DNA of 64,000 bases from Acholeplasmataceae bacterium (GCA_030603805.1 JAUVXD010000004.1:62001-126000); one strand, 5' to 3'; numbered from the stretch's first letter, positions 16,693 to 41,433 are shown. The notes: generated by a model from the sequence alone, not told the origin. Numbers and translations are program-made.

Positions 16693-17841
16693 TCACGTAA
16701 AGGTAAATGTAAATGCCTGACTCTTAGAGGAAACCCTTCCAACAAAATCAATGGCTTGTATTTCAACTTGATAAGATTGATTCGACTGTAATCCAGTCAA
16801 AGTCACTTGGTTTAAATTGGCATATCGATGAAAGACTCCATCTAAATAGATGGCATACTTTTCAACCCCACGATCATCAGTCGAACGATTCCAAAAGAGT
16901 GTGTTTGCTAGTTGAGCCAGTTGGATATTGGATGGTGTGGTTGGATTTGTTACATCTGTTACTGCATAATCTTGACGATAAACACGTACATAATCCACTT
17001 CCATGCGTGTTGGAAATGCACTCGCATCGACACCTTGAACACCACCAAAAGTACCACCAATCGCAAGATTGATTAAAAGATAAAACTCTTGATCAAATGG
17101 ATGCGCATGATGATAGGGTACATCACGGTTAAGCCCAGGAACATATAAGAATTCTCCAAGCTTATCGCCATCCACATACGTGATGATATGACCAGGTGCC
17201 CAAATCATTTCATAGACTTTAAACTCAGTCTCAACATTAGGATAAACTCTTGTATAACCGATTTGCGTGCCTAAATTATGATTAAACTTTCTAGTGTGAA
17301 TCGTTGAATGGATGCGGTTTAAATCATAGCCCGCATATTCCATAATATCAATTTCACCACTATGTGGCCAGTTGCCATAGGTGTTCATGAGAGGTAGCAT
17401 CCAAATCGCAGGCCATGTACCTCGACCTGATGGCATTTTAGCACTCACTTGAATTCTAACATATCGATCTGACCACTTAAAGCGTGTATTAATTCTTGAT
17501 GATGTGTAATTCTTACCCATCATATATTCATTTTTTGCAGTAATCACAAGTTTTCCATCTTCAAAGGTTGTGTTATTTCTGGTGTAATACTGAATTTCTT
17601 GATTACCCCCGCCATAACCACCATCTTCATAATTCCATTTGGTCATGTCGAGCTCTTCACCTTCAAACTCATCAGCCCATATGCAAACCCATCCATCTTC
17701 TAAGGTTGGAACGGCACAATCCGAAGTTGGAATAAGTGGGATAAGCCCATTAGGTACCGTAGGTTCTGTCGGTTCTGAAGGCTTTTCTTCACAACCAATT
17801 AAGATGAAAAGTATCAAGAAAAGTATAAATAATTTCTTCAT
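16693..17841 (-). CDS. Surface lipoprotein GH16 endo-beta-1,3-glucanase (laminarinase-like) with FN3 domain
   Basis: 382 residues. The signal peptide ends in the lipobox LIGC (C17), so the enzyme sits on the outer face of the membrane. The GH16 domain (about 50-293) carries GEIDIMEYAG with the catalytic nucleophile E163, D165 and acid/base E168; the Met between them is typical of laminarinases. A fibronectin type III domain (about 300-382) follows. It would cut beta-1,3- or mixed-linkage glucan into oligosaccharides for the adjacent importers. Last gene of the operon; AGGAGG precedes the ATG. Confidence 0.92.
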   Translation of the reverse strand: MKKLFILFLILFILIGCEEKPSEPTEPTVPNGLIPLIPTSDCAVPTLEDGWVCIWADEFEGEELDMTKWNYEDGGYGGGNQEIQYYTRNNTTFEDGKLVITAKNEYMMGKNYTSSRINTRFKWSDRYVRIQVSAKMPSGRGTWPAIWMLPLMNTYGNWPHSGEIDIMEYAGYDLNRIHSTIHTRKFNHNLGTQIGYTRVYPNVETEFKVYEMIWAPGHIITYVDGDKLGEFLYVPGLNRDVPYHHAHPFDQEFYLLINLAIGGTFGGVQGVDASAFPTRMEVDYVRVYRQDYAVTDVTNPTTPSNIQLAQLANTLFWNRSTDDRGVEKYAIYLDGVFHRYANLNQVTLTGLQSNQSYQVEIQAIDFVGRVSSKSQAFTFTFT

Positions 17842-17849
17842 AAAACCTC

Positions 17850-18782
17850 CTATTCTCCAGTAATTCCGGTACGATCAATACTTTCAACGAAATATCGTTG
17901 TGCAATAAAGTAAAGGACTAGTAGTGGTAATATGGTAAGCATATTTCCAGCAAGTAAAATGGCTTCATTAAGCTCTGAACCTGGTGAACCAGGTGGGAAA
18001 AGTGTTATATAACTACTTCTAAATGCCATAAGTTTAAGTGGTAATGTCACTTGCCCACCGACATAAAGTGCAGTAATGAATGTTTCATTCCAATACCATA
18101 CAAAACTAAATAGGAACACAATAATGAATGATGGTATCGCCAGTGGAATTGCAATTCTTGAGAAAATTCTAAATTGTGATGCACCATCCACTTCAGCGGA
18201 TTCCATTAAAACACCTGGTATGGTTTTAAAAAATTGATAGAAGATAAGAATATAAATCGCTGCATTAATCCCTTGACCAAAGATTGCTGGAATAATCATT
18301 GCGCGCTGACTGGTCATTAAGCCTAAATTTCTAAAGACAAGCATATTAGCAACCATGGTAACCTGTGAAGGTAGGATGAATGTTGCAAGCATCAAAACAA
18401 AGAATAGTTTTTTCAGTGGAAAATCAAATTTAGCAAATCCATAACCAATAATGGCTGAGGATATGGTGACTGATATCGATACTTTTAAAACATATGATGT
18501 TGTATCAAAGATAGCTGCAGGTAGCTGTAAAACTTCAATTGCTCTTTGATAATTTGAGTATTGAAGTACAGTTGGTATCCACTTAATCCCTGGATTAATG
18601 AGGTCATCCACACTCATAAAGCTGTTAACGAGCATAAATAAAACTGGGTAAAGATAAATGTAGCTAAAGCTAATTAATAACGTATAGATGATGAGTTTGT
18701 AGATAAAACCATCGACAAAATTCATCCCCATCAAGAAACGCTTCGCCTTGATTTTAAAATGTTTCATGTCCATTTTTTTCAT
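17850..18782 (-). CDS. Carbohydrate ABC transporter permease, MalG type (pair B)
   Basis: 310 residues with six predicted membrane helices. The cytoplasmic EAA loop ESAEVDGASQFRIFSRIAIP, which docks the ATPase, is intact. It belongs to the MalG/CUT1 permease family for oligosaccharides. AAGGAG lies nine bases before the ATG. It pairs with the MalF-type gene three bases upstream. No ATPase gene is present in the window, so a shared MsmX-like ATPase elsewhere is likely. Confidence 0.9.
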   Translation of the reverse strand: MKKMDMKHFKIKAKRFLMGMNFVDGFIYKLIIYTLLISFSYIYLYPVLFMLVNSFMSVDDLINPGIKWIPTVLQYSNYQRAIEVLQLPAAIFDTTSYVLKVSISVTISSAIIGYGFAKFDFPLKKLFFVLMLATFILPSQVTMVANMLVFRNLGLMTSQRAMIIPAIFGQGINAAIYILIFYQFFKTIPGVLMESAEVDGASQFRIFSRIAIPLAIPSFIIVFLFSFVWYWNETFITALYVGGQVTLPLKLMAFRSSYITLFPPGSPGSELNEAILLAGNMLTILPLLVLYFIAQRYFVESIDRTGITGE

Positions 18783-18785: not shown

Positions 18786-19892
18786 TTATCGCTCCTTCTT
18801 CTTGATATTGATTAAACCAACATAAATGCCCATAATAATGACCATCAGTAAGAAGTAAATCCATGCAATCGCAGCAGCATATCCATAACCATGCCAGAAA
18901 TTAGAATCTGGTGCACCGACAAGCATATGTGTTCTTGCCATATCTAAAATACCGCCTGCTTCAACAAAAAGCGACATAGAGACAACGATATAGATGACAG
19001 CAACACTAATCAGTGGACTAATTGATGGTAACGTAATCTTCCAAAAGCGATCCCAAGGAGACGCACCATCGATCGATGCAGCTTCATAAATGGAGTTATC
19101 AATCTTTTGAAGACCTGCTAAAAAGATTAAAATGGGAATCCCTGCATACCATAAAATAAGTAACATTGAAGTTAATAGTACTTCAATCGGATCTGCAAGC
19201 CATGAACCAATATTTTGGCTGACGTACATGAGCAATGAACTGTTTTGAATGGAGGGTAGTGAGGTTGCATCTTGATTGGCAAGTTCTGCAATAACAGGAC
19301 CCGTTGAAATAACGACAGGTAAGAAGAAAATCGTTCTCCAAAAACCTTTCATTTTAATTGGATTATTAATTAAAACTGCAATTAAAATAGAGAATACGAC
19401 AACTAACGGCACAGAAATCACCATTTTACCAACATAAGTTCCAAATAGTGGTAACAAGGTTTGGCTTCTAAAGATATTTAAATAATTTCTAAAGCCGATA
19501 AATGTGGTGGTTACACCTTGCTGCAAGCTATAATAAGCTTCATGGAAACTTAAGTATAGGGAATAAAACATGGGGTAAAGGGTAAAGATTAAAAATCCAA
19601 TCAGCCAAAGCATGATAAAGATATAGCCGTAAAAGCCTTCACGCTTCTTTCTAGTGACGTTAATTTTTAAAAAACTAAATAAAATAAGTGTTTGCCCAGT
19701 TTTTCTAATGATGGCATTATGTGTCAAGAAATGTCCAATTTTTGATAAAACTGGCCAAACTTTTGCACGATAAAATTCAGACAAAGCATCGTAGCCTTTA
19801 ATGATGTACTTCTTCAAAAATCCAAGACCTTTTTTAATCGGTTCAAAGATTTTAGCGAAAAATCCCTTAATTGATCTTATCAGCTTTTTCAT
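18786..19892 (-). CDS. Carbohydrate ABC transporter permease, MalF type (pair B), with N-terminal extension
   Basis: 368 residues, longer than usual MalF-like permeases of about 290-300. The first 75 residues are a basic amphipathic extension, followed by six membrane helices. The EAA loop reads YEAASIDGASPWDRFWKITL. It overlaps the DUF5696 gene by four bases, with GAGGTGG as the ribosome binding site. Partner of the MalG-type gene just downstream. The function of the extension is unknown. Confidence 0.9.
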   Translation of the reverse strand: MKKLIRSIKGFFAKIFEPIKKGLGFLKKYIIKGYDALSEFYRAKVWPVLSKIGHFLTHNAIIRKTGQTLILFSFLKINVTRKKREGFYGYIFIMLWLIGFLIFTLYPMFYSLYLSFHEAYYSLQQGVTTTFIGFRNYLNIFRSQTLLPLFGTYVGKMVISVPLVVVFSILIAVLINNPIKMKGFWRTIFFLPVVISTGPVIAELANQDATSLPSIQNSSLLMYVSQNIGSWLADPIEVLLTSMLLILWYAGIPILIFLAGLQKIDNSIYEAASIDGASPWDRFWKITLPSISPLISVAVIYIVVSMSLFVEAGGILDMARTHMLVGAPDSNFWHGYGYAAAIAWIYFLLMVIIMGIYVGLINIKKKER

Positions 19893-22282
19893 GGGAGCAC
19901 CACCTCATAACTTCTTGGCTGGATTTGAAGCGCTCCCACATTTCGACTGGTGTAATTATAGTTAACATAAATGGAGACACCATTATCATAATCCACACGA
20001 ACTAGTCCAGTTGATAAGACTTGTCTATCCTCAATAGAGGCATGAACGACATGTCTTAAAGCTTGATTGACAAACTGATATGTTGCAACAATTTCATCTT
20101 GGTAATTCTTTAAGTATGTTGTATAGAAGAAACTTGCAGGCGTATAACGCATCTTGAAGGTAATTTCTTCAGTTAAGACATAGCTTGGGTTTGCACCGAA
20201 ATCAACCATAGCAAGTAAGCGATCATCACTTAAGGCATTAAAGTTTAAATAGGGTGTATAAAACGAAATATTGCCCTTAAGAATGATTGGCACTAATGGC
20301 ACCAAATCTGTATAATAATCATATTGTGAATTGGTAATCGCTAAATCCATATATCCTGTCATATAAGGATACATATAAACATTGGGTTTCGATAACAACA
20401 AATGATCATTTAATGCTGCAATCTGTTGATAGTAATCAATAGTTTGATTTCTATAGAAAAATTGATTGTCATAATAACTAAATAATGTTGAACCTAAATT
20501 ATTTAAGAATAATCCAGAAATACCTAAATCATCAAAGAACGACTGATCATTTTGAGCAAATCTAAAGCTTGAATCTGGATATAAGTAATAGACTTCTGTC
20601 ACTTGAGTGTTGAGTGAACGCATTCTAAATGACATTTTGAGTCGAGATAAATTTCTAGCAACATCACGGTTGTAATTGACTCTTCGTGAGTTTTCAGATG
20701 CCATCGTGTAGTCATTTTCTAAATAAATGGTATTATCATCTTCAACGACAGCATCAATTAAACTTGAAAGTCCCCGATCCCATGTGTTGGTGCGATAAGG
20801 AGTTCTATTAATAAACCCATCTCTACTCCATCCCATCAGTGCAATCTGTTGATTAAGTAACCCTTGAGATTTAAATTCTTGGTATGCTTGTTTAACATCA
20901 TTTGCGGTTGTCATCACAACACGTGTTGTTCCAATAAAGGAAGGTTCTTGATCGCTCATGATATAAGATAAATGAATCGGAATTTGATTGTTGACAACTT
21001 TTTCTTCGCTGTTTAAAATACCTTCACTGAGTAAAAAATCCCGATAATTTTTAGCAATACCCACATAACTTGCATCTTGATCACTTAAAATCTGATAAGC
21101 AACACGGTAATCTGATGGATTAAATCCTTGTGGTATTTGGTCATTGCCATCACCCGCTTTATTGATAATATTGCGGTAGATTTGTCTGACATTAAATCTT
21201 GAGTTGATGCGATGATATCTAGTTGAAGCACCCCAGAAAAAGGCAGTCAGTGTTGAAAATTCTGCACCCTCTAATATACGTGCATAAAATCCATCACTGC
21301 CAGGTTCATGAACATTACCAAATATAGGTAGGGATAACTCAGGTAAAATCATGGCTTGATATCCAGCATCGCTACCAAAAAATCTTGCTTGAAAATACGT
21401 ATTATAGCGCTGATTGGTTCTAACCAAAGCGCCTAATCCATCAGGAATCACTAAATAGCCTGGCATTCTGTCTTCTCTTGATGCTCCAAAATATGGGAAA
21501 ACTGTGATGGCGGTTAATCTGAAAACATCACCAGTTTCAGTGATAGAATCTGTTGGAATATGAACTTCAATTGCGCCATCAACTAATGCAATATCAATAC
21601 TAAAACTGATGCTTAATGTCTTAATATTTACAAAAACAGTAAATGATGATGCATTTTGTGACGTAATCGTTGTTTCAACACGTCTGGTTGCATAACTACC
21701 TGGTTCAATCATATAAGGTCTTAAATGATCGGGGTTTTCAGGTGTGATGGATGCATCGTTTAAGTAGTTCACTTCGGCAAGCGTGTATAAAGACTGAGTT
21801 TGAACTGAGCCTGAAGTGATATTTTGCGTTCTAACTGTACTGACCCATAAACCAGAGTTCATTAAGTTTCTATTAGCGACATTATCTTCTCTGGCACCAG
21901 ACATCCCTTGAAACTCTGGACGAGATGACCAAAAATAGCCCGTGATTCTATTTTCAACAATCATCGAAAATGAATCTTTTTCAAAATAGACTCTTAATTC
22001 TGGTGTTTCAAACATCTTGTCAAATCCAAGTTGATCAAGTTCTGCTTCGGTATATGACAAACTATAGTTCGTCTTATAGTCAAGCATTCTTAAAGGATCA
22101 ACTGTATCATCTTGCGTATATCTTGAACTTTCTAATAATTGTTGGTTGATATAACTGAAGTTTGAAGGAATCTCAATAGGATCTAGATCTAAAGATTGGC
22201 TGTTTGCATAAGCAACCCCAAACGAAGCTAAAACAAAGAGGATGATGATAAGTGCATATTTCATAAATTTAGCCACGAACAA
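19889..22282 (-). CDS. DUF5696 secreted protein, possible uncharacterised glycosidase-like fold
   Basis: About 797 residues. An N-terminal hydrophobic segment ending in VAYANS suggests secretion. The rest has no membrane helices. The sequence looks like DUF5696 proteins: an N-terminal beta-rich half (about 60-400, with the PYFGASREDRMPGYLVIPDG region), then an alternating alpha/beta half (about 420-720) and a short C-terminal beta segment with VRVDYDNGVSIYVNYNYT. This layout resembles glycosidases that couple a beta-sandwich to a TIM barrel, but catalytic residues cannot be named. The start is uncertain (TTG 22282 or GTG 22276). It overlaps genes on both sides, inside the glucan transport operon. 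Confidence 0.6.
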   Translation of the reverse strand: MFVAKFMKYALIIILFVLASFGVAYANSQSLDLDPIEIPSNFSYINQQLLESSRYTQDDTVDPLRMLDYKTNYSLSYTEAELDQLGFDKMFETPELRVYFEKDSFSMIVENRITGYFWSSRPEFQGMSGAREDNVANRNLMNSGLWVSTVRTQNITSGSVQTQSLYTLAEVNYLNDASITPENPDHLRPYMIEPGSYATRRVETTITSQNASSFTVFVNIKTLSISFSIDIALVDGAIEVHIPTDSITETGDVFRLTAITVFPYFGASREDRMPGYLVIPDGLGALVRTNQRYNTYFQARFFGSDAGYQAMILPELSLPIFGNVHEPGSDGFYARILEGAEFSTLTAFFWGASTRYHRINSRFNVRQIYRNIINKAGDGNDQIPQGFNPSDYRVAYQILSDQDASYVGIAKNYRDFLLSEGILNSEEKVVNNQIPIHLSYIMSDQEPSFIGTTRVVMTTANDVKQAYQEFKSQGLLNQQIALMGWSRDGFINRTPYRTNTWDRGLSSLIDAVVEDDNTIYLENDYTMASENSRRVNYNRDVARNLSRLKMSFRMRSLNTQVTEVYYLYPDSSFRFAQNDQSFFDDLGISGLFLNNLGSTLFSYYDNQFFYRNQTIDYYQQIAALNDHLLLSKPNVYMYPYMTGYMDLAITNSQYDYYTDLVPLVPIILKGNISFYTPYLNFNALSDDRLLAMVDFGANPSYVLTEEITFKMRYTPASFFYTTYLKNYQDEIVATYQFVNQALRHVVHASIEDRQVLSTGLVRVDYDNGVSIYVNYNYTSRNVGALQIQPRSYEVVLP

Positions 22283-24302
22283 TCAACTCCCTTATGACGT
22301 CTGTAATGAGGACCCACACTTCTGATAAGAGTAGGTAGACGATGAAGAGCACCGCCAGAATCATGACGCCTGTAAATAGTGTAATGAAAATATTACCAAT
22401 GGTTGGCTTCATGTCATAGAAATGAATTTCTTTGACCATGATGATCATATAAATGCCTGTAATGATTAATCCAATAAAGAGGACTGTATCATAGATGAAG
22501 GCTTCGTTGTAGGTTAGACCTTTGGAAATGATGGTTAATATCGGTAACGTGATAATCATCGGTAACAGTGTGACTGCAGATGCTTGGTATACGTCTCTGA
22601 GTTTACCTTCACCATCACGAATAGAACACACCAGATAGTTTGCTAAAACCCACAAGAAGAATGGTACAAAAACGGTTGTGATTTGTTGAAACATATTGAT
22701 CTCTGAAGGAATGAGTGGATTAAATAGGAAGCTTGTTTCAAAGATGAAAATAATATAGACCAAGAAGAATAATAGGAGATAAATCGTTGCAGAAAGATTA
22801 GAGAGTTTCGCTTCGCGCTTAATGCCATAATAACCATCACCTGGATGTTTAATGATATAGAAGGGGAAAACGAGTTCTCGATAAAGCTTGAACTTGTTTA
22901 AATAAGCTTTCAGTCTTTCTTTTGGTTTCTTTAAATAATCCATAAAATGAATGATGTTATTTAAGATAAAGAGGACAACAAATGTTAATAGGAAGATGAT
23001 AATGCCTTGTCCACTTGAAAGTAGGATTTGGTTTCTAACTTCCCAAAATGCATTGGAATACCCTTGTTGATCGCGGGCGACCTGATAATATTGCATCGCA
23101 AGTTCATATTCCATACTTGCAAAATAAGCATCGCCGATACCTTTATTGGCTAGGTCAAAAAGTGCATTCATCTTCAGTACTTCTTGCCATGGTTCTAAGG
23201 ATTCGATATAACGTCCATCTTGATAAAGACTAATCGCGAAATGAACTAAATTCGCAAATTCTGTTGGAATAAAGATTTGAAGAGCTGAGGTATTTTGGTC
23301 CACTGCGTACAAATTATTTCTAGAATCGACTGCAATACCTGAAGGGACTTTGAAAAGTCCTTTTTGGCCATGAAGATCTTGACCACTAAAAACAAATAGT
23401 GTGGATCCATCTGGTGCATATTCAGTAATATATCCATCCGATGTGATGGTAAATATCGTGTCATACGGTCCAACAAAAATATCTTCAACATTATCAAAGC
23501 CCCAATCAGAGCGGCTATAGACTAAATTAGCGATGTTAAGTTTCAAATAACCAGATTGTGATTTTGTCGTCGTTAAAATAAGTCCATCGTTATCAACAGC
23601 AACATTATAGACTGGATTGGGAATCATTTTAAACCAAGTTCTTCTTTGTGTTTCATCAAATAAAATGTATCTTAAAACATTGTCCCAAGTGTTTGGAATT
23701 TGATTACCACCAAAGAAACCAAAGAAATTGCCATTGTTTTCAAACTGAGCAAGTCCATTAATATTACCTGACAAAAGTAAATAGACATTGTGACCACGGT
23801 CAGTAATGACTTTAGTGGGTACAAAGGGATCCGTTGGTTTAAAAAATGGTGTATTGACTGGTTTTTGATAAATAGAACCTAATGAGTAGGTATCTGTTGT
23901 GGGATTATAAAGGAACTGATAGGCACGTTCATCGCCAAAATCAGCGACATAAAGATGACCATCGAAACCGACGTGAACCCCTGTGGGTCGATTCAAAATA
24001 CCTTCACCGATGACAGTAACAATATCGTCTCTTAGTGAATATTTAATGACCCTTGCATTACCAAAATCGGCAATATAAATATTATCGTTTTTGTCAACGG
24101 TGATATCTCTTGGTGAGTTAAGCACCAATCCACCTAAGTTATAGCTAATCGATAATGGTAAATAAGCATCTTGAGTCGGTACAATTCTGCCTTGTGAACT
24201 ACTATAAGTAAAGGTACTATAGGGTAGACCATTCGCTTCAACTGTTTGGGATGGTAAATACAGTAAAACGAGGATGAGTAAGACAATGATGAGTTTTTTC
24301 AT
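22269..24302 (-). CDS. NHL-repeat / Yip1-domain membrane protein
   Basis: 677 residues. A signal sequence (about 1-23) is followed by an extracellular NHL beta-propeller (about 50-345) with repeated units such as ITVDKNDNIYIADFGNARVI. A short TPR-like helical part (about 350-420) comes next, then a membrane helix near 435-455. The C-terminal Yip1-like domain (about 490-670) has five hydrophobic helices. The propeller could bind glycan or another envelope protein. It overlaps the DUF5696 gene by 14 bases and the permease by one, which suggests that the products work together. Exact role unknown. Confidence 0.75.
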   Translation of the reverse strand: MKKLIIVLLILVLLYLPSQTVEANGLPYSTFTYSSSQGRIVPTQDAYLPLSISYNLGGLVLNSPRDITVDKNDNIYIADFGNARVIKYSLRDDIVTVIGEGILNRPTGVHVGFDGHLYVADFGDERAYQFLYNPTTDTYSLGSIYQKPVNTPFFKPTDPFVPTKVITDRGHNVYLLLSGNINGLAQFENNGNFFGFFGGNQIPNTWDNVLRYILFDETQRRTWFKMIPNPVYNVAVDNDGLILTTTKSQSGYLKLNIANLVYSRSDWGFDNVEDIFVGPYDTIFTITSDGYITEYAPDGSTLFVFSGQDLHGQKGLFKVPSGIAVDSRNNLYAVDQNTSALQIFIPTEFANLVHFAISLYQDGRYIESLEPWQEVLKMNALFDLANKGIGDAYFASMEYELAMQYYQVARDQQGYSNAFWEVRNQILLSSGQGIIIFLLTFVVLFILNNIIHFMDYLKKPKERLKAYLNKFKLYRELVFPFYIIKHPGDGYYGIKREAKLSNLSATIYLLLFFLVYIIFIFETSFLFNPLIPSEINMFQQITTVFVPFFLWVLANYLVCSIRDGEGKLRDVYQASAVTLLPMIITLPILTIISKGLTYNEAFIYDTVLFIGLIITGIYMIIMVKEIHFYDMKPTIGNIFITLFTGVMILAVLFIVYLLLSEVWVLITDVIRELIVRG

Positions 24303-25192
24303 TATTTGATACCTGAATGAGCCATGGTGTTCATGACCTTACTTTGCAAAATGATGAATAAGATTAAGTTCGGTAAGAACATAATTAACCCAGCTGCAGC
24401 GGCCATCCCTTGCCCTGCAACGGTGTTTCCTTGTGCGGAAGTCAAACTCATCATGTAAAATGCAAGCGTACGCTTAGATTCATCATTGATGTATAAAACT
24501 GAAGTTGATACGTCATTCCAAATCGCCTGAAAGGCAAGAATACCTACAGTCGCAATCGCAGGTGCAATGACGGGCATGATAATCTTTAAGAAGATTTCCA
24601 TTTCAGATGCACCATCGATTTTCGCTGATTCAATCAGTTCATTCGGTGTTTGGTCAATAAATTGTTTAATTAAAAACATTGCAACCGGCATGACAATAAC
24701 TGGTAAAATATGTGCCAAATAAGAGTCAATTAAACCAGATTGTGCAATGATTAAATATCTTGGAATTTGAACGGCAATTGGAACAAACATTAAGGCTAAG
24801 GTATTCAGTTCAAATAAGAACTTCTTGCCTCTAAATTTAAGCTTAGAAAGCGCATATGCTGAAAATCCTGTAATAAAGATAGCGAGTGTAACCCCAACCA
24901 CTGTGACAAATAGACTATTAACTAAATATCTTGAAAATGGAACTCCAGAAGCTGAAACAACTCTCGATAACTCAATAAAGTTATCAATGGTTGGACGTCT
25001 GACAAAGAATCTAGGTGGATAAGCAAAGAGTTCACTTTGAGGCTTGAAGGCATGGTTGACAATAAAAATGATCGGTAACAGCATCAATGTTGAAAACGGG
25101 ATTAAAAAGATATAGAAAGGTAACTGACTGCGATGGAATCTTGTTGGATTAATCTTAGTTCCTTGAAACGAATTTGTTTTCTTTGGTTTCAT
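24302..25192 (-). CDS. Carbohydrate ABC transporter permease, MalG type (pair A)
   Basis: 296 residues, six predicted membrane helices, CUT1/MalG family. The EAA loop is ESAKIDGASEMEIFLKIIMP. It has AAGGGAGTGATTGT before the ATG and follows the MalF-type gene after four bases. Together with that gene it forms the first of two permease pairs in this operon, next to the anchored binding protein. Confidence 0.9.
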   Translation of the reverse strand: MKPKKTNSFQGTKINPTRFHRSQLPFYIFLIPFSTLMLLPIIFIVNHAFKPQSELFAYPPRFFVRRPTIDNFIELSRVVSASGVPFSRYLVNSLFVTVVGVTLAIFITGFSAYALSKLKFRGKKFLFELNTLALMFVPIAVQIPRYLIIAQSGLIDSYLAHILPVIVMPVAMFLIKQFIDQTPNELIESAKIDGASEMEIFLKIIMPVIAPAIATVGILAFQAIWNDVSTSVLYINDESKRTLAFYMMSLTSAQGNTVAGQGMAAAAGLIMFLPNLILFIILQSKVMNTMAHSGIK

Positions 25193-25196: not shown

Positions 25197-26081
25197 TCAC
25201 TCCCTTTCCCCTAAAATTCTCCAGGTGACCTTGGAGATAAAATAAACCATGATTAAAAGAACGACACTTACTGTGGCGGCATATCCCATCATATAACGGA
25301 TAAAGCCAAAGTCTTCAATGTGGTTTACGATGAGTTGCCCTGCATATTGTGGTGTTGGATTGGACCCTGATAAGGCAACCCCAATACCACCAGCCTGGAA
25401 GGTCGTCACGACCGCCATGACAGCGCCAAAGAGCATTTGTGGCTTCATGGAAGGTATCGTAATGTAGAAAATTTCTTGTGCGCGATTTCTTATTCCATCC
25501 ATATAGGCTGCTTCATAAAGCGTTTGATCAATGTTTAAGACCCCAGCTAGCATCGCTAAAAACCCGACACCCATGCTGCTCCACAAGGAAACAACAATCA
25601 TAATGGTCATTAAATACTGTGGTGATTGTAAGAACTGAATAGGTTCTAAAATAATCCCTGCATTCATTAAAAGCGCATTGAGATACCCTTGAGCGTCATC
25701 AGAGAAAATGATACGCCACATACTTGCCATGGCAACACCTAGTGTTAATGAAGGTGAATACAATATGATCGCAAGAATCGTTCTAGACTTCGATGGAATC
25801 TGTGAAAGCATCCATGCTAAGAAAAACGATAAAATATAACCGATTGGTCCAACGATTAAGGCGAACTTGAGTGTGTTCGATAGAACAAACTGCATAAACA
25901 CCGTATCCATTGTAATCAGTTCGATATAGTTTGTGATACCAATAAATTCTGGTCTTTGAATTGCATTAAAATAAGTAAACGATAAGAAAATAGCGGCGAG
26001 TACTGGAATCACAACAAAGACAAAGAAGAGTGTCCAATAGGGCACGATAAACCATGCCGGACCATTCATTTTACGAAGCAT
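25197..26081 (-). CDS. Carbohydrate ABC transporter permease, MalF type (pair A)
   Basis: 294 residues, six predicted membrane helices, CUT1/MalF family. The EAA loop is [20 protein letters not shown], which lacks the usual Ala-Ser after Gly (GIR instead of GAS), a small departure from the consensus. GGAGGTG precedes the ATG, which overlaps the binding-protein gene by 11 bases. Confidence 0.9.
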
Positions 26082-29000
26082 TGCGCACCTCCGTTAACCA
26101 ACGATCAATCGTGTGGATACTTGGTACTGGATAATCTTTAATGATTTGACCTTGTCTGGTATATCCAAACTCAGCCATCTTGTACAAGATTTCGCGATTA
26201 GAAATTCGAACCGCTTCATCAAGTGCTTGTCTGGGATTAACCCCCTCAAACACAATCTTAGTCCAAGCATTAGAGATTTCTCTTTCAACCATGTAAGCAC
26301 CTGGAATACGAGAGGCTTCAATGCCGAATTGCCATTGTTCTAAGACGATATCTTTATACTCATCAGGCATAGAAAGTGTTTTAAATGCTTCAACATTGGC
26401 TGTATTCCAGAAATAGGCTTGACCATAAGTGCTTTGTAGTAGGAAAGCAAATTCACTTTGTACAGGTGTTGACATGAACCAGGACAAGAAATCCCATGAT
26501 TCTTGTTGATATTTTGTTGTTGACATAATCATCGATGCTTGCGCACCAACAGCTGAATATCTGACAATTTCATCTCTTTCTGCATTATAGACACCTGGAT
26601 GTAAATCCATTCCCCATAATCCATCGAGTTCTGAAGCGGCTGTTTCTAATAAAATATAAGTTGATAAATCTGAAATACCAATCGGAAGTGTGCCATATCT
26701 AAAATTGTTATAGAAGGATGCCACAAACTTAGGCATATTATAGAGTGTGAAAAGGTCACTCATAAGTTTAATTCCTGCAAGTGTTTCTTCTGAGTTGATG
26801 TTGGTTTGCATACCATTTTCTGTATATAGGTCGCCACCAAATTGATAAATAAAGGGGAGCGTTGCAACAAACGGCTTAAGTCCTGAATATTGTGCTAGTG
26901 GTACAAAATAGTTCATACCATAACTTTGTAAAATCGGTAGGATTTCAATAATTTCATCCCATGTTTGTGGGATATCTGTGATACCAATACTGTTTAAGAT
27001 GTCTTTACGATAATAAGTCACCCAGAAGTTTTGAGTTGTGGGTAACCCGTAAACCCCTTCTTCAAAGACGTAAGGAATCATTGCCCCTTTTGAAAAGTTT
27101 TGAACAAGTTCCTCATAACCTTCAAACTGTCTTAAGTCTAAAGATGCTCTTCTGACTGCAAAATCATAGGGTATCCAGTGATTCACACCAATGGCGACAT
27201 CGGGTGCTTGTCCTGAAGCATTGGCTAGAACAAGTTTGTTTTGATCCGGCATTTGTGATAAAGTGATTTTCATTTCACCTGTATAACTTTGGTCAATCAT
27301 GGATTGCATGATTTCAATGTATTGTCTAGGGAAATTGACCCAAACCATCAATTCTCCTTCTTGACGTCTCGATGCTGAATAAGGGTTGTTGATGAATGAG
27401 AGTACGAGTCGTTTTGTCCCTTCCCAAAATCTTACAAAAATATTTGCAAATGGCTTAGGTAGGCTTTGTTCACCATGAATCATGATGCGTTCAAGCTCCA
27501 TATTGGAGCGCATTAGGCGTTGCATTAAATTCCCTAAAATTTGATTCACTGATGAATCCCCGTCTGAAAATTGAACCATTAATGAAGGGAGTTTATTGAT
27601 GTTGTTCGCAATATTTCTAAGACGGCTTGAAGCGACTCTCATATTACCGATTTCAGAAGGTTCTCTTTCATCGGTCAAGACCATTAATCGATCATAGGTT
27701 TCATCTAAGAGATTAGCCCAAGTACGAATTTGTGATCTTGCACTTGGGAAATAAGCTTCAATATCCCAGTCACGATAACGATCTGTGCCGCCTGCTGTAT
27801 AGCGTTTAACATCCAAAGATAGCCCTTGAATTTGTGTCATCACATACTGTAAGACTTCAATGACTTGGCGGTAAGGATAATTGACAGCTTCGAGTGTAAT
27901 TTCATTGATACCTGCATTTAAATAGATGAGTAGAGGTTCTTCATCTGGTGACATGAGCGTGCGGTTTAAAAAAGATGTTGTATAGGGGAATGCATAACTT
28001 TCAAGTAAATCAAAAGGTACTTCCCCATTAATTTTAATCTTTCTAAAAACCGGCATATCTTTAATTAGATATTGACGATATTTAAAGCTTAAATGGTAAA
28101 ATCCTGCAGTTTCAGTTTCCACATGGTAAGTCACTGCTTGTCCAGCTCGTTGCCATGAATCCCCAAAAATGACATTGAGTCTTAAGAACTGTGTATTATA
28201 AAATAGATTTGAAGGATCTTGTTCTGGTCTAAGTCTAATCGATGGATCGTTTCTAGAAATCATTTGTCTCGCAGACACTTGGATTTTCGTATTGACTAAT
28301 GATGCTGAAGCATGTTGATTCAAATACGCTTCATAGGTCATGATTTCTTCTTGTTTGACAAAATAGAACTGACCAATGAGCAGTCTTGCATTGACATAAT
28401 GGATTTCAATGACATCACCAGGATTTAAATCAAAGGCAAAAAGACCGCGATGCATGCCGCGATAATCATTGACTAAATGTTTGGTCCATTCAAAAATTTT
28501 AATAGAATTGGGTTGAATTTCATTTTGATATCGGTCGAGCTTAAAATCTGTTGAGCTTAGTGCCCATTTTGATGGAATGACTAAGGTTTGAGATTCATAA
28601 AATGGTGCTTCCCCGTTAATAGTCATACTAATTTGAGCATTATTAATACTGGTATCAACTTCCATAAAGTCAAATCCAAAATAGTAAAGTCCACTGACAC
28701 TAGATGTATTGGTGATAGATACCGATTCTGAACGTGAAAGTAAAAAGATATCCTGATCAACACCAGAAATCTCTTGATAACTTAAAACATGTTCACCATA
28801 AACCGAATGGCCTGAAGTGATGACAAGACCTGTCATATCACCGGTTAAAAAAGTTTTTTCAACTTGACTGTCTTGCCTATTAGATGCTATATAATCTTGT
28901 TTAACAGATGTGTATAAAGGTGTATTGAAAGCTTCTGAAACGAGTTCGTTTGAGTAGTCATTCATCAAATCAGAGGGATCAAAAAAGGTATTTATCGCTG

Positions 29001-29142
29001 ATTTTCTAAAAAAAGAAAGTGTCACCACCAAGACTAAAACCACAGCAAGAAACATGCTGATGATTTTTTTTGGAGGAACGGTTGTAAAGAATGTCTTCAT
29101 CATGAACATTCCCTTTTTAAAAAATAGCGGTATTTTTTTCAT
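26071..29142 (-). CDS. Membrane-anchored large solute-binding protein (1023 aa)
   Basis: An unusually large substrate-binding protein. A membrane helix at about 28-46 without a lipobox anchors it. Two beta-rich, CBM35-like segments follow (about 80-265 and 300-440), then a helical spacer (about 455-590) and a family 1 extracellular solute-binding domain (about 595-1005), recognisable by [38 protein letters not shown] and the IPQTWDEI block. Usual binding proteins have 400-550 residues. It probably captures a polymer or long oligosaccharide and hands it to permease pair A, whose gene it overlaps. AGGAGG precedes the ATG. Confidence 0.82.
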
Positions 29143-29216: not shown

Positions 29217-30683
29217 TTATTGTCCTAACGTTTGATACATTTGCTGAACGATTTCATTTGCTCTATTTTGCCATTGCAATGCGTATTCTGCAACTGCAGA
29301 TGGACCAGCAATGACTAGATTATCGAAGTTATATGGATTTTCTGGATCATATACCCATGCCCAGAAATCTTTATAACCTGGAAGCCACTTGTCTAAGTCT
29401 GGTTTTGAAAGGTGAATACGATCAAGTGTATATTCAATACCTTGGATACCATCGACTAAATCATAAACTCTATTCCAAACATCTGGATAATCAGCAACTG
29501 GGAATCTGTCAAGATATGTTGGAAGTTCACCAGCAGCAAGTGCTGCAGTTTTTTCAGCTTCAAGAATATCAAGTCTTGCTTCCCAACCTGCTTTACCGAA
29601 TGTCATCCATTTAGCAAGTAGATAGGCTTCATATGGGTGTTCTGTTTGAGCAGATACACATTGGTAGTCAAGAATGGTTGGTGGGAATAATCCTGCTGAA
29701 CCTTGTGGATATGGCCAAAAGCCAATGGTTTCATTTAAACGTTCTTTGACATCATTGATGACCCAGAACTGCCATGACCCTTCAATATCCATAGCACCAT
29801 GACCTGTTTGAATTTGATAACCACCAAGTTGTGGAATTTGAAGGACGCCATCAACAAAGACACTGTCAGGTAGTCTTGTTGTTGTACCATCAGTTAGACG
29901 ATGAATTTCAACTTTAGTTTGCATTGCTGAAATCCAAGCTGCTGATGTGTAATTGAATTGTGTACCATCCCAAGTATCATAGAGCACATTAGGATCTTGC
30001 ATGGTTGGCCATACTTGTTGGAAATCTGGTGAACCATACCAAGTGTCAAAACCTAAAATGATATTTTCAGGATTTTGAAGGTCGAAATTCTTTATCGCTT
30101 TAGCAATTTCAATAAATTCGCTAAATGTCCAATCTTTAACTGGGTATCCATTTAAATCTGTACGATATTTGCCAGGAACTGTGGTTAAGTTTGCTCTGTC
30201 AAAAATATCTAAGTTAATCATAATGCCTTTTAAGAATTGGAAAGATGGCATTGCATAACGTTTGCCGTTATAGACACCTGTTGAAGCAATGTTATCATAG
30301 ACAAGTGCTGTTTCTGGGTCTGCATTCCAATACTGAGCGACATCCAAAGTGAGTCCTGCAGTGATGACTGTGGGTACGTTATCAGTTGCAAACACGTCTG
30401 GAAGAAGTCCAGCTTGAGCAGCAATAACTAAGTTACCCGTAAATTCAGCACCTGCACCTGTAATTTCAGTACGTCGCGTGACACGAATATGTGGATAAGC
30501 CACCATAAAGGCATCAATCATTTTTTGAGTCAATCCTGGGTCTGCCCAGTCCGCGTAAGTGAGTTCAATGGTCTGCTGTGGTCCTGTCGGATTGTTTGGA
30601 TCGGTTGGATCTTCTGGATTGTTACATGCAACAAGTCCAAGTCCGAAAAGGATGACCATCAGTAATAATAATACTTTTTTCAT
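29217..30683 (-). CDS. Carbohydrate ABC transporter solute-binding lipoprotein
   Basis: 488 residues. A signal peptide ends in the lipobox GLVAC (C20), followed by a Pro/Thr/Asn-rich linker and a family 1 solute-binding domain (about 38-480). Typical features are the strand ELTYADWADPGLTQKMIDAF and the hinge regions with many aromatic residues (WPTMQDP, GSWQFWVIND) suited to sugar stacking. It is the usual size and would serve one of the two permease pairs. AGGAGG precedes the ATG, and a strong hairpin lies upstream. Confidence 0.92.
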   Translation of the reverse strand: MKKVLLLLMVILFGLGLVACNNPEDPTDPNNPTGPQQTIELTYADWADPGLTQKMIDAFMVAYPHIRVTRRTEITGAGAEFTGNLVIAAQAGLLPDVFATDNVPTVITAGLTLDVAQYWNADPETALVYDNIASTGVYNGKRYAMPSFQFLKGIMINLDIFDRANLTTVPGKYRTDLNGYPVKDWTFSEFIEIAKAIKNFDLQNPENIILGFDTWYGSPDFQQVWPTMQDPNVLYDTWDGTQFNYTSAAWISAMQTKVEIHRLTDGTTTRLPDSVFVDGVLQIPQLGGYQIQTGHGAMDIEGSWQFWVINDVKERLNETIGFWPYPQGSAGLFPPTILDYQCVSAQTEHPYEAYLLAKWMTFGKAGWEARLDILEAEKTAALAAGELPTYLDRFPVADYPDVWNRVYDLVDGIQGIEYTLDRIHLSKPDLDKWLPGYKDFWAWVYDPENPYNFDNLVIAGPSAVAEYALQWQNRANEIVQQMYQTLGQ

Positions 30684-33523: not shown

Positions 33524-36500
33524 TTATTTTCCTCCTCGAATATAGACATTTATTTTAAAGACATTACCTTCTCGGATGTCTCTTGTCCACTTACCTGTAA
33601 CTTCACTACCTGATATTTCGCACACTTCATCATTCTTGTGCAACGTCATCTTATCGACATATGCGGTAGCATCATAGGTGTCGATATCATCTTCTAGATG
33701 ATAGATAACTTGGGTTTTGTTGAAGAGTTTGACTTCAACGATACCATCTTTAAAGAGTGTTTTGGACAATTTGGGTTTGAGTTCAAAGATGAGTTGTCCA
33801 TTTTCAAACTTAAATAACTCTTTTCCAAAAAACATATAACGCCACATCGATAAGACTTCAGCTGTTGATCCTGATAATCTTGAGACAAATCCTTGTCCAT
33901 GTTTTTTAGGATCTGGATTCGATGAAGTCGCGATAAAGGATGAGTTTTCAATCGGCGATCTGCCGTATATTTTTGGATCCATAAAGCATGTATAATTGGT
34001 TTTTAATTCCTCATAGAATTCGTCATATAATCCTGCTTTAAGTAATCCAAGCAAATACTTATAAGTCATGTGTAAGAAATTAGATTCTCTTTCTAGCCAT
34101 CCTGGTGTAAATGCTCTAATTCTTCCAATTTCATGACCATAATCATCTAAAGATACTGAGGTTTGATAGAACTGATGCTTTTGATCATAGAGTCCTGTTG
34201 TTTTAATCTTTTTATAGATAGCTTTCGCTTCATCTTTACCAGCAAGTGATTTTAAATATCTTGCAGGCGCCTCTAAGAAAACTGGCAATGGATGTACTTC
34301 AAATGCTATGACTTTAACCAAAGGTAATCCATAATGTCCAATTTTAGGTTGTCCATGTTGATCTAAAATCTCTTGATACTTTGTTGCCTCATAGGTGAGA
34401 TAGGTTGGATAAATAGGATCAATATCTTTAGCCTTTAGCATTGCTTCTTTTAAATCCTGTGAGATGATCTTCAAAACATCTAAGTAATGCACTGCTTGAT
34501 TGGTAATCACTTCTTGTTCATGTTCGAGTTGATCACGGTAATGCTCAAGATGTGTCATGCGGTAATCCCAACGATCGAACTCACTACTTTGAGGGATATG
34601 TTTGTAACTTTGAGCAAGATGTTCTGTGGACGCAAGTAACATGACAGGATGATGTTCATGATCTTTAATGGTTTCTAATAAGAAATCAACGATTTTTTTA
34701 AGTTCAATGGCTTCTGAAACACCAGATCCAAAGAGTCCTGGAACCCCGTTCATGGCATCATTCCATCCGGGTTTATCCCCTTCATAAGATAAGCCAATGC
34801 CTTGAGGGTCTAAATGACCATACTTGTTTAAAACTAAGGTGAGCAATTTGCCATAAAGATTGACTTCAAGTTTTTGGTTGTTTCGCTTGAGCCATCCACT
34901 TTTTGCATGATGGTCATGTCGAATCGCACCATATTGTCTAATTTTTCCATCTTTGGTTTTTACATATTTTTCTGATCTTGGTAAAACTTTGACGGGTGAT
35001 TTAAAGAAGGGTATCTTTTTCTTAAACATCAAATCTTCTAAATGATCTGGATAAATCGAAAGATACGATTCAATTAAGTCCATATGATAGGTGAAATGGT
35101 CTTCCCAATAGCCTTCACCAAAGTTTGCTTTAATGACAACTTCACTCTCAGATAAAACTTTTTTCAAGTTTTCTTCTACTTCAAGTCCAGCTTGATATAG
35201 TTTGGTTGCAACCTCACCTGGTGTGAATTCTTGATGTACAATACTTTTTAGAACTTCAGGTAAGCTATTTGTGTTGCCATGGTAGTTGAACTTCACACCT
35301 TCAATTGAAAGTGGATTGTATCCATCTGCTTGAATGAGTGAGCTAAATTGATAAATATTGAAATCTCCAAGTTCAGGGTAGAAAAAGAGATCATTTCTTC
35401 TATTTTGAAGTACATCTCTAAAATTGCCATTGCCTTGTGAATAGAAAGCGGGTTCAATGGAGAAGAAATTATAGTCCCTTTCTAAGTCCCCATGCTTTCT
35501 TGAATAAAGATGATAACCGACAGTTCCCGACAATGTCTTTATAATCAGCGGTGTGCCACCACGCAGTAAATTATCTAAGTAGCACTGTTTATAATAATCA
35601 TTTAAAATGGGGAACGCAGTCTTTGTTTCAATTGCATTTGTTAAATCTTGATGAATCTGTTGATTTTCGATTTCTTTATGCGCTAAGTAATCATAGTTTA
35701 ATTTGCTAGTGAATGTCGTTAAATCATCTTTATCTTTCGCATAACCAATTAAACTAATGAAAGATGCAGAATCTGTGTTGTTAAATTTAAATCCACTCAT
35801 CGCACAAGGCACTTGATTCACATGAACTTGCTTGATTTTCTTGAGATTGTCAAGATCAGTTTTGATAAAACCATAAGGTGTCTCAAGTGAAGTATCTTCA
35901 TCAAAAATGAGTTTATAGTCGCTAATGTAATAAGGTTTTGAAATGTTAGATGATGTATGGTAGAAGTTCCCATCGACTTGGATACTCACCTCTGCAGAGT
36001 CATCTGTGGATGCTCTAAGCTTATAGAAGACATAATCATTTTCATGCACATTATCCATCCAACTCTGAAGTAAGTTAGATATTGCTTTATATCCGCCGTA
36101 ATCGATACCAGATGGTAAGATTTGTGCAAGTCCATCAATCACTTCAAAGGATATTTTTTGATTAGAAAGCGATTTGATATCTACTTTTCTAACCAAAGCA
36201 GCAACAGGTTCATTAGGTAAGGTGAAATAGGTCACTTGTACAGATATGCCTAAATCTTGGTTTAATTCCATGATTGATACTTGATCTTGTCTAATATGAA
36301 TACTTTGATTGGCATTCTTTTCTTTGAAAAATTCATGAACTATACCGTTGATTTTAACAAATGTACGAAAGCCAATTTTTGATACAAAATGATAAGCGTT
36401 ATTTGCTGGGAAAAATTCCATCATCGCGCCATTTTTATCTCTGATGCCAAAGGAACTAATCAGTTGTCCCCTATTCACATAAAAAGCCCATAAGGGAATC

Positions 36501-36580
36501 CCCATTTTACCGGCAATTCCGCTTAAGAAACTTGAGAATGGCTTCATTTTTTGATAATCATAAAACTTGTGTTCTGTCAT
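33524..36580 (-). CDS. Large GH94-related beta-glucan phosphorylase, GH161-like
   Basis: 1018 residues, no signal, so cytoplasmic. The domain order (N-terminal beta-sandwich, helical linker, (alpha/alpha)6 barrel, C-terminal cap) is that of the disaccharide phosphorylases. The motif DKPGWNDAMNGVPGLFG holds the likely general-acid Asp, equivalent to DWND of GH94. YSQGNGNFRDVLQNRRND is part of the barrel. Size and these motifs fit the GH161 beta-1,3-oligoglucan phosphorylases better than GH94, but GH149 or a new family cannot be excluded. It would phosphorolyse imported oligosaccharides to glucose-1-phosphate. It has its own LacI-operator promoter and heads the transport operon. Confidence 0.7.
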   Translation of the reverse strand: MTEHKFYDYQKMKPFSSFLSGIAGKMGIPLWAFYVNRGQLISSFGIRDKNGAMMEFFPANNAYHFVSKIGFRTFVKINGIVHEFFKEKNANQSIHIRQDQVSIMELNQDLGISVQVTYFTLPNEPVAALVRKVDIKSLSNQKISFEVIDGLAQILPSGIDYGGYKAISNLLQSWMDNVHENDYVFYKLRASTDDSAEVSIQVDGNFYHTSSNISKPYYISDYKLIFDEDTSLETPYGFIKTDLDNLKKIKQVHVNQVPCAMSGFKFNNTDSASFISLIGYAKDKDDLTTFTSKLNYDYLAHKEIENQQIHQDLTNAIETKTAFPILNDYYKQCYLDNLLRGGTPLIIKTLSGTVGYHLYSRKHGDLERDYNFFSIEPAFYSQGNGNFRDVLQNRRNDLFFYPELGDFNIYQFSSLIQADGYNPLSIEGVKFNYHGNTNSLPEVLKSIVHQEFTPGEVATKLYQAGLEVEENLKKVLSESEVVIKANFGEGYWEDHFTYHMDLIESYLSIYPDHLEDLMFKKKIPFFKSPVKVLPRSEKYVKTKDGKIRQYGAIRHDHHAKSGWLKRNNQKLEVNLYGKLLTLVLNKYGHLDPQGIGLSYEGDKPGWNDAMNGVPGLFGSGVSEAIELKKIVDFLLETIKDHEHHPVMLLASTEHLAQSYKHIPQSSEFDRWDYRMTHLEHYRDQLEHEQEVITNQAVHYLDVLKIISQDLKEAMLKAKDIDPIYPTYLTYEATKYQEILDQHGQPKIGHYGLPLVKVIAFEVHPLPVFLEAPARYLKSLAGKDEAKAIYKKIKTTGLYDQKHQFYQTSVSLDDYGHEIGRIRAFTPGWLERESNFLHMTYKYLLGLLKAGLYDEFYEELKTNYTCFMDPKIYGRSPIENSSFIATSSNPDPKKHGQGFVSRLSGSTAEVLSMWRYMFFGKELFKFENGQLIFELKPKLSKTLFKDGIVEVKLFNKTQVIYHLEDDIDTYDATAYVDKMTLHKNDEVCEISGSEVTGKWTRDIREGNVFKINVYIRGGK

Positions 36581-36603
36581 GTTGTTGGTCTCCGTCGATT
36601 TAG

Positions 36604-36615
36604 GAAATCGATTTC
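36604..36615 (-). promoter_or_regulatory. LacI-type operator downstream of the phosphorylase promoter
   Basis: GAAATCGATTTC is a perfect 12-bp palindrome (wider context AGGAAATCGATTTCTT). It lies between the -10 box and the start codon and matches the palindrome found at the other glycan promoters. Confidence 0.75.
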
Positions 36616-36633
36616 TTTATCTAGGTTAATTTA

Positions 36634-36662
36634 ATCATACCATAATATGGTACCGTTTTCAA
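36634..36662 (-). promoter_or_regulatory. Promoter of the phosphorylase-transport operon
   Basis: On the minus strand TTGAAA (36657-36662), 17 bases, TATGAT (36634-36639). Optimal spacing; an operator-like sequence overlaps the -35 side and a perfect one lies downstream. Confidence 0.8.
36648..36661 (-). promoter_or_regulatory. Operator-like site in the spacer and -35 box
   Basis: TGGTACCGTTTTC on the plus strand, nearly the same as TGGTACCGTTTCC at 52713 upstream of the giant lipoprotein gene. It is an imperfect version of the palindrome with the central CG. Confidence 0.5.
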
Positions 36663-36678
36663 TATTTAAACATAGAAT

Positions 36679-37698
36679 TTATTTGGTTGAATCTCTCGCA
36701 ATGAGGGTCACAGGGAGTTTGACCACTTCGTCGATTTCAGCTTCAGGGTTTTCCATTAATGCGATCAGTAATTTGGCTGCTGTTTCTCCAAGTTGTTTAC
36801 GATCTTGGGCAACCGTTGTTAAGGATGGTGTGAAATGTTTGGCAAAGGCAATATCATCAAAACCGATAACTTGAATGTCTTCTGGAACCTTAATTTCTAA
36901 GTCTCTAAGCCCTTTTAAGACACCAAGTGCAATATCATCTGATGCAACCAAGATGACTTCAGGTTTTTCAGTCATTTGTTTCATCAGTTTGAGCACTGCA
37001 TTGTATCCTGATGTAAACCCAAAGGATTCCGCATAAACAATGGATGATTCATTTGTTATAAGCTTAAGTTGTTCAGCATACTTTTTAAATGCAATCAAAC
37101 GTTCAGCAAATGCTTTTGAGTTGAGTGGACCCGAAACCATCGCAACCTTCGATTTTTTCGTTATGTTTTTCACATAATCTAAAGTCACTTTGATGCCTTG
37201 GTCATTATCAGAAATGACAGTGTGTAATCCCGGTAAAATCATATCTGTTGAGACACATGGAATACCACTATTGACCAGTTCATAAAGTCCTTGATCGGAA
37301 TAGTTACCCACCACGATGTAGACGCCATCGACGCGTTTATTCATACACCATTCATAGTATGACATTTCATGTTTGCCAAGCTTTTTCACAATAAAAGATA
37401 ATTCATAACCTTCTTTTTCCAAATAGGTTTTAAAATGCTGCAGGATGCTTGAGAAAAAGGAGTGTTCAAGTCCAATGTCGGATTCTTCTGTGAAAACGAC
37501 GCCTACGGTATAGGTTCTCTTGGATTTAAGCATGCGTGCAGATGATGCAGGTACATAGCCAACTTCTTTAATGTAGGCTAAGACTCTGGCTCTGGTTTGA
37601 TCGCTGACGTTCCCTGTTTGATTCAGCACTTTTGAAATCGTCCCTGGTGCTAAATTCAACTCTTTTGCGATGGTGTAAATCGTTCTTTTCTTCGTCAA
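36679..37698 (-). CDS. LacI-family transcriptional repressor (glucan locus)
   Basis: 339 residues. The N-terminal helix-turn-helix and hinge read IYTIAKELNLAPGTISKVLN, then PASSARMLKSKRTYTVGVVF, followed by the periplasmic-binding-protein-like effector domain (about 60-335) with the usual IQVIGFDDIAFAKHFTPSLT end block. It probably represses the glucan genes until an oligosaccharide binds. It is the last gene after the cytoplasmic GH16 (2-base gap), so it is autoregulated through the GH94 promoter. It is clearly paralogous to the regulator at 52954. No terminator separates it from the next promoter. Confidence 0.92.
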   Translation of the reverse strand: MTKKRTIYTIAKELNLAPGTISKVLNQTGNVSDQTRARVLAYIKEVGYVPASSARMLKSKRTYTVGVVFTEESDIGLEHSFFSSILQHFKTYLEKEGYELSFIVKKLGKHEMSYYEWCMNKRVDGVYIVVGNYSDQGLYELVNSGIPCVSTDMILPGLHTVISDNDQGIKVTLDYVKNITKKSKVAMVSGPLNSKAFAERLIAFKKYAEQLKLITNESSIVYAESFGFTSGYNAVLKLMKQMTEKPEVILVASDDIALGVLKGLRDLEIKVPEDIQVIGFDDIAFAKHFTPSLTTVAQDRKQLGETAAKLLIALMENPEAEIDEVVKLPVTLIARDSTK

Positions 37699-37700
37699 GT

Positions 37701-38423: not shown

Positions 38424-38835
38424 GAATATAACCCTCAAACGCTTTGATTAAAGACGCTTTTTCTTCTGCATTCATATAAATGCGTGGTGAGTTTTCAGGA
38501 CATGTATTTTCCTCTTCCACGATTAAGAGTTTGGCATCTTTAGATAAGGTGTGCGTATGAAAAATACCTGCAGGAATTTTATAAACCTTAAGTGGTTCTA
38601 ACGATAAAACATCAAACGATTGAACACGTCCATCTTTTTCTTCAGCAAAAAACATATGGCATGTACCTGAAAGTAAAACAAAGACTTCATCAGTTTGATT
38701 GTGTGCTTCAACATAAAGAAGTTTATCAATATCTAATTCATCGATATAATTTAAGACAGCAACTCTCCAATCTTTATGATGAAAGAGTTTTTCATAGCCG
38801 ATGCCATTAAAATCAAATAAATCATAATACTTCAT
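38413..38835 (-). CDS. Cupin-domain protein, sugar-metabolism type
   Basis: 140 residues forming one cupin barrel. Metal-binding residues are seen in VEAHNQTDEVFVLLSG (cupin motif 1) and PAGIFHTHTL (motif 2). Such proteins act as sugar isomerases or epimerases or as sensors; the role here is unknown. The ATG at 38835 is seven bases after GAGGTG, inside the end of the GH94 gene (14-base overlap), so translation is coupled. Confidence 0.75.
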   Translation of the reverse strand: MKYYDLFDFNGIGYEKLFHHKDWRVAVLNYIDELDIDKLLYVEAHNQTDEVFVLLSGTCHMFFAEEKDGRVQSFDVLSLEPLKVYKIPAGIFHTHTLSKDAKLLIVEEENTCPENSPRIYMNAEEKASLIKAFEGYIHEV

Positions 38836-41326: not shown

Positions 41327-41339
41327 GGTGCACCTCAAA

Positions 41340-41353
41340 AAAACCGATTTCCT
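41340..41353 (-). promoter_or_regulatory. LacI-type operator between -10 box and start of the GH94 gene
   Basis: On the minus strand AGGAAATCGGTTTT, a near-palindrome of the GGAAANCGNTTTCC type, directly upstream of the ribosome binding site. Confidence 0.7.
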
Positions 41354-41359
41354 AGTTTG

Positions 41360-41388: not shown

Positions 41389-41433
41389 GGGCTTTCACTC
41401 TAGTTTTTTGATTATCAGGACTTAAATGCTTAA

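Follow-up and report, generated by a model that had tools for sequence, protein, structure and literature searches.

The nearest described relatives of the protein considered here belong to glycosidase family GH129. NagBb (5WZN) is a GH129 alpha-N-acetylgalactosaminidase and ZgGH129/DagB (5OPQ, 8RZK) is a GH129-like 3,6-anhydro-D-galactosidase. The second catalytic residue of NagBb, the acid/base that works with the nucleophile Asp435, is presumably Glu478. Two catalytic residues are referred to for NagBb, of which Asp435 alone is kept in ZgGH129, and the activity of the latter depends on an Asp that the partner monomer contributes from its N-terminal domain (PMC5698469).

On the transport side, the closest described systems are the oligosaccharide importers MalEFGK and MsmEFGX. 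The gene cassette described here shares with them an MBP-like domain in a solute-binding protein (SBP), permeases of the MalF/MalG type and a shared ATPase encoded elsewhere. It differs from them in having four permeases instead of two and two SBPs, one of which is membrane-anchored and carries extra beta domains. It also differs in that an NHL/Yip1 protein and a protein of GH129 fold are among its fixed parts. In Acholeplasma laidlawii, a GH161/GH16 cluster was described whose permease pair lacks an SBP, with an adjoining GH94 cluster that has its own transporter (PMC6484121). A literature search for ABC importers that contain Yip1/NHL parts, or that include a catalytically dead glycosidase, returned nothing relevant, and a search for PF18952 or DUF5696 found no occurrence in the papers listed.

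The cassette at the locus

The window, that is the whole stretch of DNA that was analysed (64,000 nucleotides from an Acholeplasmataceae bacterium, GCA_030603805.1 JAUVXD010000004.1:62001-126000), carries the cassette on its minus strand. The genes follow each other in this order along that strand:

29217-30683, minus strand: second solute-binding lipoprotein, 488 aa, without a Pfam match and conserved at this place
26071-29142, minus strand: large membrane-anchored solute-binding protein, 1023 aa, with an MBP-like SBP domain at residues about 592-996
25197-26081, minus strand: ABC sugar permease A (BPD_transp_1)
24302-25192, minus strand: ABC sugar permease B (BPD_transp_1)
22269-24302, minus strand: NHL-repeat/TPR/Yip1-domain membrane protein, 677 aa, overlapping the DUF5696 gene and always its upstream neighbour
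19889-22282, minus strand: DUF5696 protein gene, 797 aa as called, of GH129-type fold without the GH129 catalytic residues
20501-20503, minus strand: codon of Asn594 of the DUF5696 protein, aligned to the catalytic nucleophile Asp435 of GH129 NagBb
18786-19892, minus strand: ABC sugar permease D, with a 4-nt overlap with the DUF5696 stop
17850-18782, minus strand: ABC sugar permease C, joined to D as one protein in several relatives
16693-17841, minus strand: GH16 laminarinase-type beta-1,3-glucanase lipoprotein, in the exchangeable enzyme slot of the cassette

The original prediction, made from the sequence of the window, placed the DUF5696 gene between sugar permeases. This order is correct but incomplete, as the gene sits between two permease pairs and directly behind the NHL/TPR/Yip1 gene. 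No ATPase gene was found in the cassette, and three UgpC-type ATPases score above the curated cut-off elsewhere in the genome. The same genome contains three such cassettes. In the model of the large SBP (pLDDT 90.3), a transmembrane helix at the N-terminus is followed by two beta-rich domains, a helical domain and a C-terminal MBP-like domain; the structure matches listed for the model fall on this last domain and reach Z 35.7. The N-terminal region of this protein (residues about 50-590; gene 26071-29142), which contains the two beta-rich domains, is conserved and could be a carbohydrate-binding part. An anti-phage role was also considered for the locus and rejected, as PADLOC gave no match.

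The DUF5696 gene and its product

The open reading frame at 19889-22282 is real but lies on the minus strand; the plus-strand frame at the same place holds many stops. Its product matches PF18952 (DUF5696) at E 7e-125 (418 bits for a cut-off of 25.6), residues 206-792 covering positions 4-612 of the profile, and an NCBIfam search assigned no name to it. Judging from the sequence, the true start is probably the GTG at 22276 (795 aa) and not the TTG at 22282, because the GTG is aligned with the starts of orthologues and stands about 10 nt behind a GGAG. The overlapping genes of the original prediction are found on both sides, the NHL/Yip1 gene ending inside the DUF5696 reading frame and the DUF5696 stop overlapping the start of permease D by 4 nt (ATGA). 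With the GTG start, the overlap with the NHL/Yip1 gene measures 8 nt (GTGGCTAA in the window; 22269-22282). The median gap over 121 loci is -8 and this translational overlap is conserved in most relatives.

An AF2 model was computed from an alignment of the DUF5696 protein of the window with 74 homologues from genome contigs (mean pLDDT 92.6, pTM 0.90). The modelled chain starts with a hydrophobic signal or anchor helix (residues 2-28) and continues through a beta-supersandwich and a TIM-type barrel to a C-terminal beta domain, so that the beta half, the alpha/beta half and the beta tail expected from the sequence are all present. The expected tail motif was found as NGVSIYVNY at residues 767-775, where N774 and Y775 do not vary among 75 homologues. 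A lipobox Cys was looked for in the protein and none was found. Directly after the signal helix stands a motif of the S-S-R-[FY]-T-Q-P type (SSRYTQ, residues about 51-56) that is kept from Acholeplasmatales to Bacillus and is a possible docking peptide.

A GH129-type fold

The protein had been thought to have a glycosidase-type fold and to be related to TIM-barrel glycosidases. Structure prediction followed by structure search recovered a GH129/GH101 fold. The best solved match of the model is 5OPQ (GH129; Z 28.2, rmsd 3.6, 570 residues), and 5WZN (GH129) is matched with Z 28.0 and rmsd 4.0 over 565 residues; the GH129 structures match over the full chain (Foldseek E 8.9e-31). After GH129 come GH101 at Z about 18-19.5 and GH13 barrels at Z about 18-19. 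The DUF5696 protein thus has, over its full length and at Z about 28, the same three-part fold as NagBb and ZgGH129/DagB. The GH129 order of beta-sandwich, TIM barrel and C-terminal beta domain is present in the model, and the C-terminal tail motif aligns with that of the two GH129 enzymes. The two-lobed periplasmic-binding (SBP) fold is absent. GH101 endo-alpha-N-acetylgalactosaminidases share the sandwich, the barrel and the beta tail, and the barrel type is shared also with GH13 amylases; PF18952 gives weak matches to GH13 proteins in the same order. GH101 and GH13 are nevertheless more distant, and their catalytic carboxylates are not kept as a set.

Sequence profiles agree with the structural matches. 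The profile of the 75-sequence DUF5696 alignment finds 5WZN at E 3e-4, and its hhalign comparison with NagBb-type GH129 gives Prob 98.6 and E 6.6e-16 over 504 columns. The GH129 side of this comparison consisted of six NagBb-type proteins from related genomes. They were reached through PF12905 because PF11308 (GH129) could supply none, as it matched no protein in 295 genomes of the phylum or in the controls. One of the six references, L136, has E 3.5e-195 to 5WZN and is a NagBb orthologue that itself matches PF18952 at E 1e-17. With full-chain GH129 matches at Z 27-28, GH101 at Z about 19 and concordant profiles, the proposal of a glycosidase-type fold stands.

The NagBb-type GH129 proteins of related genomes (L136-L141) pass Pfam's DUF5696 threshold (L136 with 64 bits) and stay under that of its GH129 model (21 of 25.6 bits). 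Automatic annotation will therefore put active enzymes into DUF5696.

Catalytic residues

Unlike the GH129 enzymes, DUF5696 proteins have an unconserved nucleophile position, lack the acid/base segment and have the metal and GalNAc motifs replaced. In the hhalign alignment, Asn594 of the window protein, at the end of beta4, faces D420 of L136, which is the equivalent of NagBb Asp435. The acid/base stretch of GH129 (SSEEC, E463 in L136) falls in a gap of the DUF5696 alignment, and the anchors that flank it are separated by 24-30 residues in DUF5696 against 42 in GH129. The GH129 motifs HLDGW, GYDNxHPD and LHDQY are replaced or unconserved, and the WAGG region is not aligned reliably.

The nucleophile column accommodates 14 different residues in the 75 homologues: D in 28, E in 13, S in 8, G in 5, N and A in 4 each, P and Q in 3 each, T in 2 and a single M, K, R, H and I. 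By entropy it ranks 255 of 314 barrel columns, which makes it more variable than most. On the tree it undergoes 30 Fitch changes for a barrel median of 21, including 10 switches between acid and non-acid; E249, D281, G484 and N680 undergo none. The residue differs even between close pairs (Q/H in L066/L067 at 94% identity, D/G in L103/L105 at 61%). A register shift by a residue or two does not rescue the position, since none of the columns 580-645 is acidic in at least 75% of the sequences. When the set was extended to 118 homologues by 43 further, more diverse members, no invariant acidic residue was found among them. The share of acids in this set is 92% at E249, 97% at D281, 86% at D659 and 99% at D694, the last being half Asp and half Glu. 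E249 and D281, both highly conserved, lie in the beta-sandwich and could be functional.

That the nucleophile column is simply lost was the first reading, dropped in view of the Asp found in a subset of Bacillus and Paenibacillus, where residue swaps among close relatives occur too. Because Asp is present in 28/75 sequences, mostly from these two genera, and Glu in 13/75, some members may be active or may have lost activity only lately. Loss of the NagBb residues alone is no proof of inactivity either, since GH129-like enzymes vary in their catalytic residues. The original prediction had tentatively taken the protein for a glycosidase enzyme and had named a missing conserved acidic pair as the result that would speak against it. 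No such pair exists across the homologues, the nucleophile column is among the more variable ones, the acid/base segment is absent and no Asp or Glu is invariant family-wide. From the alignments, the enzyme reading is probably wrong and the GH129 catalytic residues have probably been lost.

Conservation of the cassette

The neighbours of DUF5696 were examined at 123 loci, of which 121 were testable upstream and 119 downstream. In 121/121 the NHL/Yip1 gene lies next to it upstream, and in 119/119 a permease gene lies next to it downstream. The spacing is at most 20 nt in 120/121 cases upstream and in 119/119 downstream, overlap being usual. A set of 80 loci was gathered by similarity to the window protein from Acholeplasmatales, Izimaplasma, Bacillus, Paenibacillus, Cohnella, Lachnospiraceae, Thermosipho and a Chloroflexi bin; the collection scan behind it was run with a narrow alignment, an alignment of all paralogue types being too diverse. 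In view of this choice by similarity, a second set was drawn independently from 245 genomes of the phylum by Pfam match only, and gave 40 loci. All 40 show the large SBP, permeases A and B, NHL/Yip1, DUF5696 and permeases D and C, as far as the contigs reach. In the 860-aa subfamily, NHL and Yip1 are two separate genes. Permeases D and C are fused in 5/40 loci (L164, L173, L184, L189 and L196) into proteins of about 620-640 aa. The fusion suggests a single heterodimer of the two.

Co-occurrence follows the same pattern: DUF5696 (above cut-off) and the N-terminal half of the large SBP agree in 61/61 relatives, 41 having both and 20 neither. GH129 enzymes, in contrast to DUF5696, are found outside the transporter cassette, none of the six NagBb-type control enzymes having cassette genes within about 9 kb (0/6). 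At the loci examined, the DUF5696 gene without exception shares an operon with genes for importer permeases and SBPs. The idea of a second surface-acting enzyme of the operon is at odds with this distribution, in which DUF5696 invariably belongs to the transporter cassette and the enzymes are what varies.

Enzyme slot and sugar cargo

PF10091, a glucoamylase-like family encountered next to the cassette, is that of the GH144 beta-1,2-glucanases. The gene after the cassette (n=37) encodes GH16 in 8 cases, PF10091 in 7, GH3 in 3, and NamZ, glucosamine-6-phosphate isomerase or GH5 in 2 each, the others being single matches. Near the paralogous cassettes of the window genome lie GH85, PF10091 and GH13 genes. 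DUF5696 stays constant while the enzyme slot changes, and the cassette is therefore understood as a general import platform with changing cargo.

The GH16 enzyme of the window (16693-17841) is closest to laminarinases. A GH161-like protein has E 1.3e-208 to a solved GH161 phosphorylase, and a GH94 protein is close to laminaribiose phosphorylase (6GGY; E 7.5e-190). To judge by their sequences, the enzymes of the locus point to an importer that serves beta-1,3-glucan here, and not to alpha-GalNAc or anhydro-galactose linkages. The region 33524-42780 holds the GH161-like phosphorylase, a LacI regulator, a second GH16, the GH94 and a GH30, and amounts to a near-complete beta-1,3-glucan (laminarin) utilisation locus. 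At 47853-52655, a lipoprotein of 1600 aa contains several repeats of a module about 120 aa long (FTVNVPANTP...GSFGGDLPSWNP) and, behind these, an esterase-like region.

Proposed function and alternatives

The GH129-type fold, the loss of catalytic residues and the gene linkage are computational results. They lead to the proposal, held with reasonable though far from full confidence, that the DUF5696 protein is a catalytically retired GH129-type glycosidase that now serves a carbohydrate ABC importer as a fixed subunit outside the cytoplasm. Since the residues for cutting seem lost and the gene is always inside a fixed sugar-import gene set, the protein probably binds glycans, keeping sugar chains in place for uptake instead of cutting them. 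It would stay at the membrane, complexed with NHL/Yip1 and the permeases; without a lipobox, in wall-less bacteria, it would be lost unless its N-terminal helix or its partners hold it there. Its old active-site cleft would bind oligosaccharide chains, and would hold or orient them between surface hydrolysis by GH16 and their transfer to the SBPs and permeases. After import, the cytosolic GH161 and GH94 phosphorylases would shorten the chains. The importer would be powered by a shared MsmX/UgpC-type ATPase encoded elsewhere. More speculatively, DUF5696, NHL/Yip1, the membrane-anchored SBP and the four permeases might constitute one obligate machine and a new importer architecture with paired permease pairs, in which the former glycosidase would be a chain-holding or gating subunit for long oligosaccharides of many linkages; this extension is put forward tentatively.

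The GH129/GH101/GH13-type fold would also suit an enzymatically active glycoside hydrolase that is docked on the transporter and trims chains immediately before they are imported, with a catalytic set other than that of GH129. Such a set could be E249/D281 in the sandwich or D659/D694 in the barrel, as the first pair is invariant and the second always acidic in 75 homologues, and the partner-monomer N-terminal-domain Asp needed for ZgGH129 activity is a precedent (PMC5698469). In the 118 homologues, however, 9 have G, V, N or Q in place of E249, 4 have S in place of D281 and 15 have Y or A in place of D659, and at D694 Asp and Glu each account for about half. Catalytic carboxylates do not usually vary in this way. 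The beta4 nucleophile position is moreover unconstrained, the acid/base segment is missing and the cassette serves enzyme sets for unrelated linkages, all of which makes a docked hydrolase unlikely.

It is improbable, too, that DUF5696 binds no sugar and serves the importer solely as a structural or assembly factor or as a gate, its barrel being a platform between NHL/Yip1 and the permeases. Strict linkage to the cassette speaks for such a role. So does the predominance of Gly, Pro, Asn and Tyr among the invariant residues (P280, G284, Y406, P662, N680, N774), as expected of a structural or interface function. Nevertheless, aromatic and polar residues of the barrel (W485, Y525, Y636, R611, D659) are conserved in the subgroup of the window, and all relatives of known function act on glycans. 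The reading originally given, an independent secreted glycosidase merely sharing the operon, accounts for the signal peptide and the glycosidase fold. It is contradicted by the genomic pattern, in which DUF5696 was never found outside the transporter cassette while true operon enzymes are exchanged freely; its catalytic residues are lost as well, and this reading is scarcely credible.

Should DUF5696 indeed be a retired glycosidase serving an importer, a function would be available for a large unnamed family common in Bacilli, Paenibacilli, Lachnospiraceae and the wall-less Acholeplasmatales. A glycosidase turned transporter subunit would join the repurposed carbohydrate enzymes, and the importer would be one with twice the usual permeases. 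The NHL/Yip1-DUF5696 pair would be usable as a genome marker of the importer, with the cargo readable from the neighbouring enzymes. The GH161/GH16 and GH94 locus of Acholeplasma laidlawii is suspected to be the same cassette; if so, both clusters would be one system, which would explain the missing SBP. Additionally, an Acholeplasmatales-like cassette was found in a bin labelled Staphylococcus epidermidis (L064, contig CAMBSI010000010.1), with a DUF5696 protein 45% identical to that of the window, and the species label of this bin is probably wrong.
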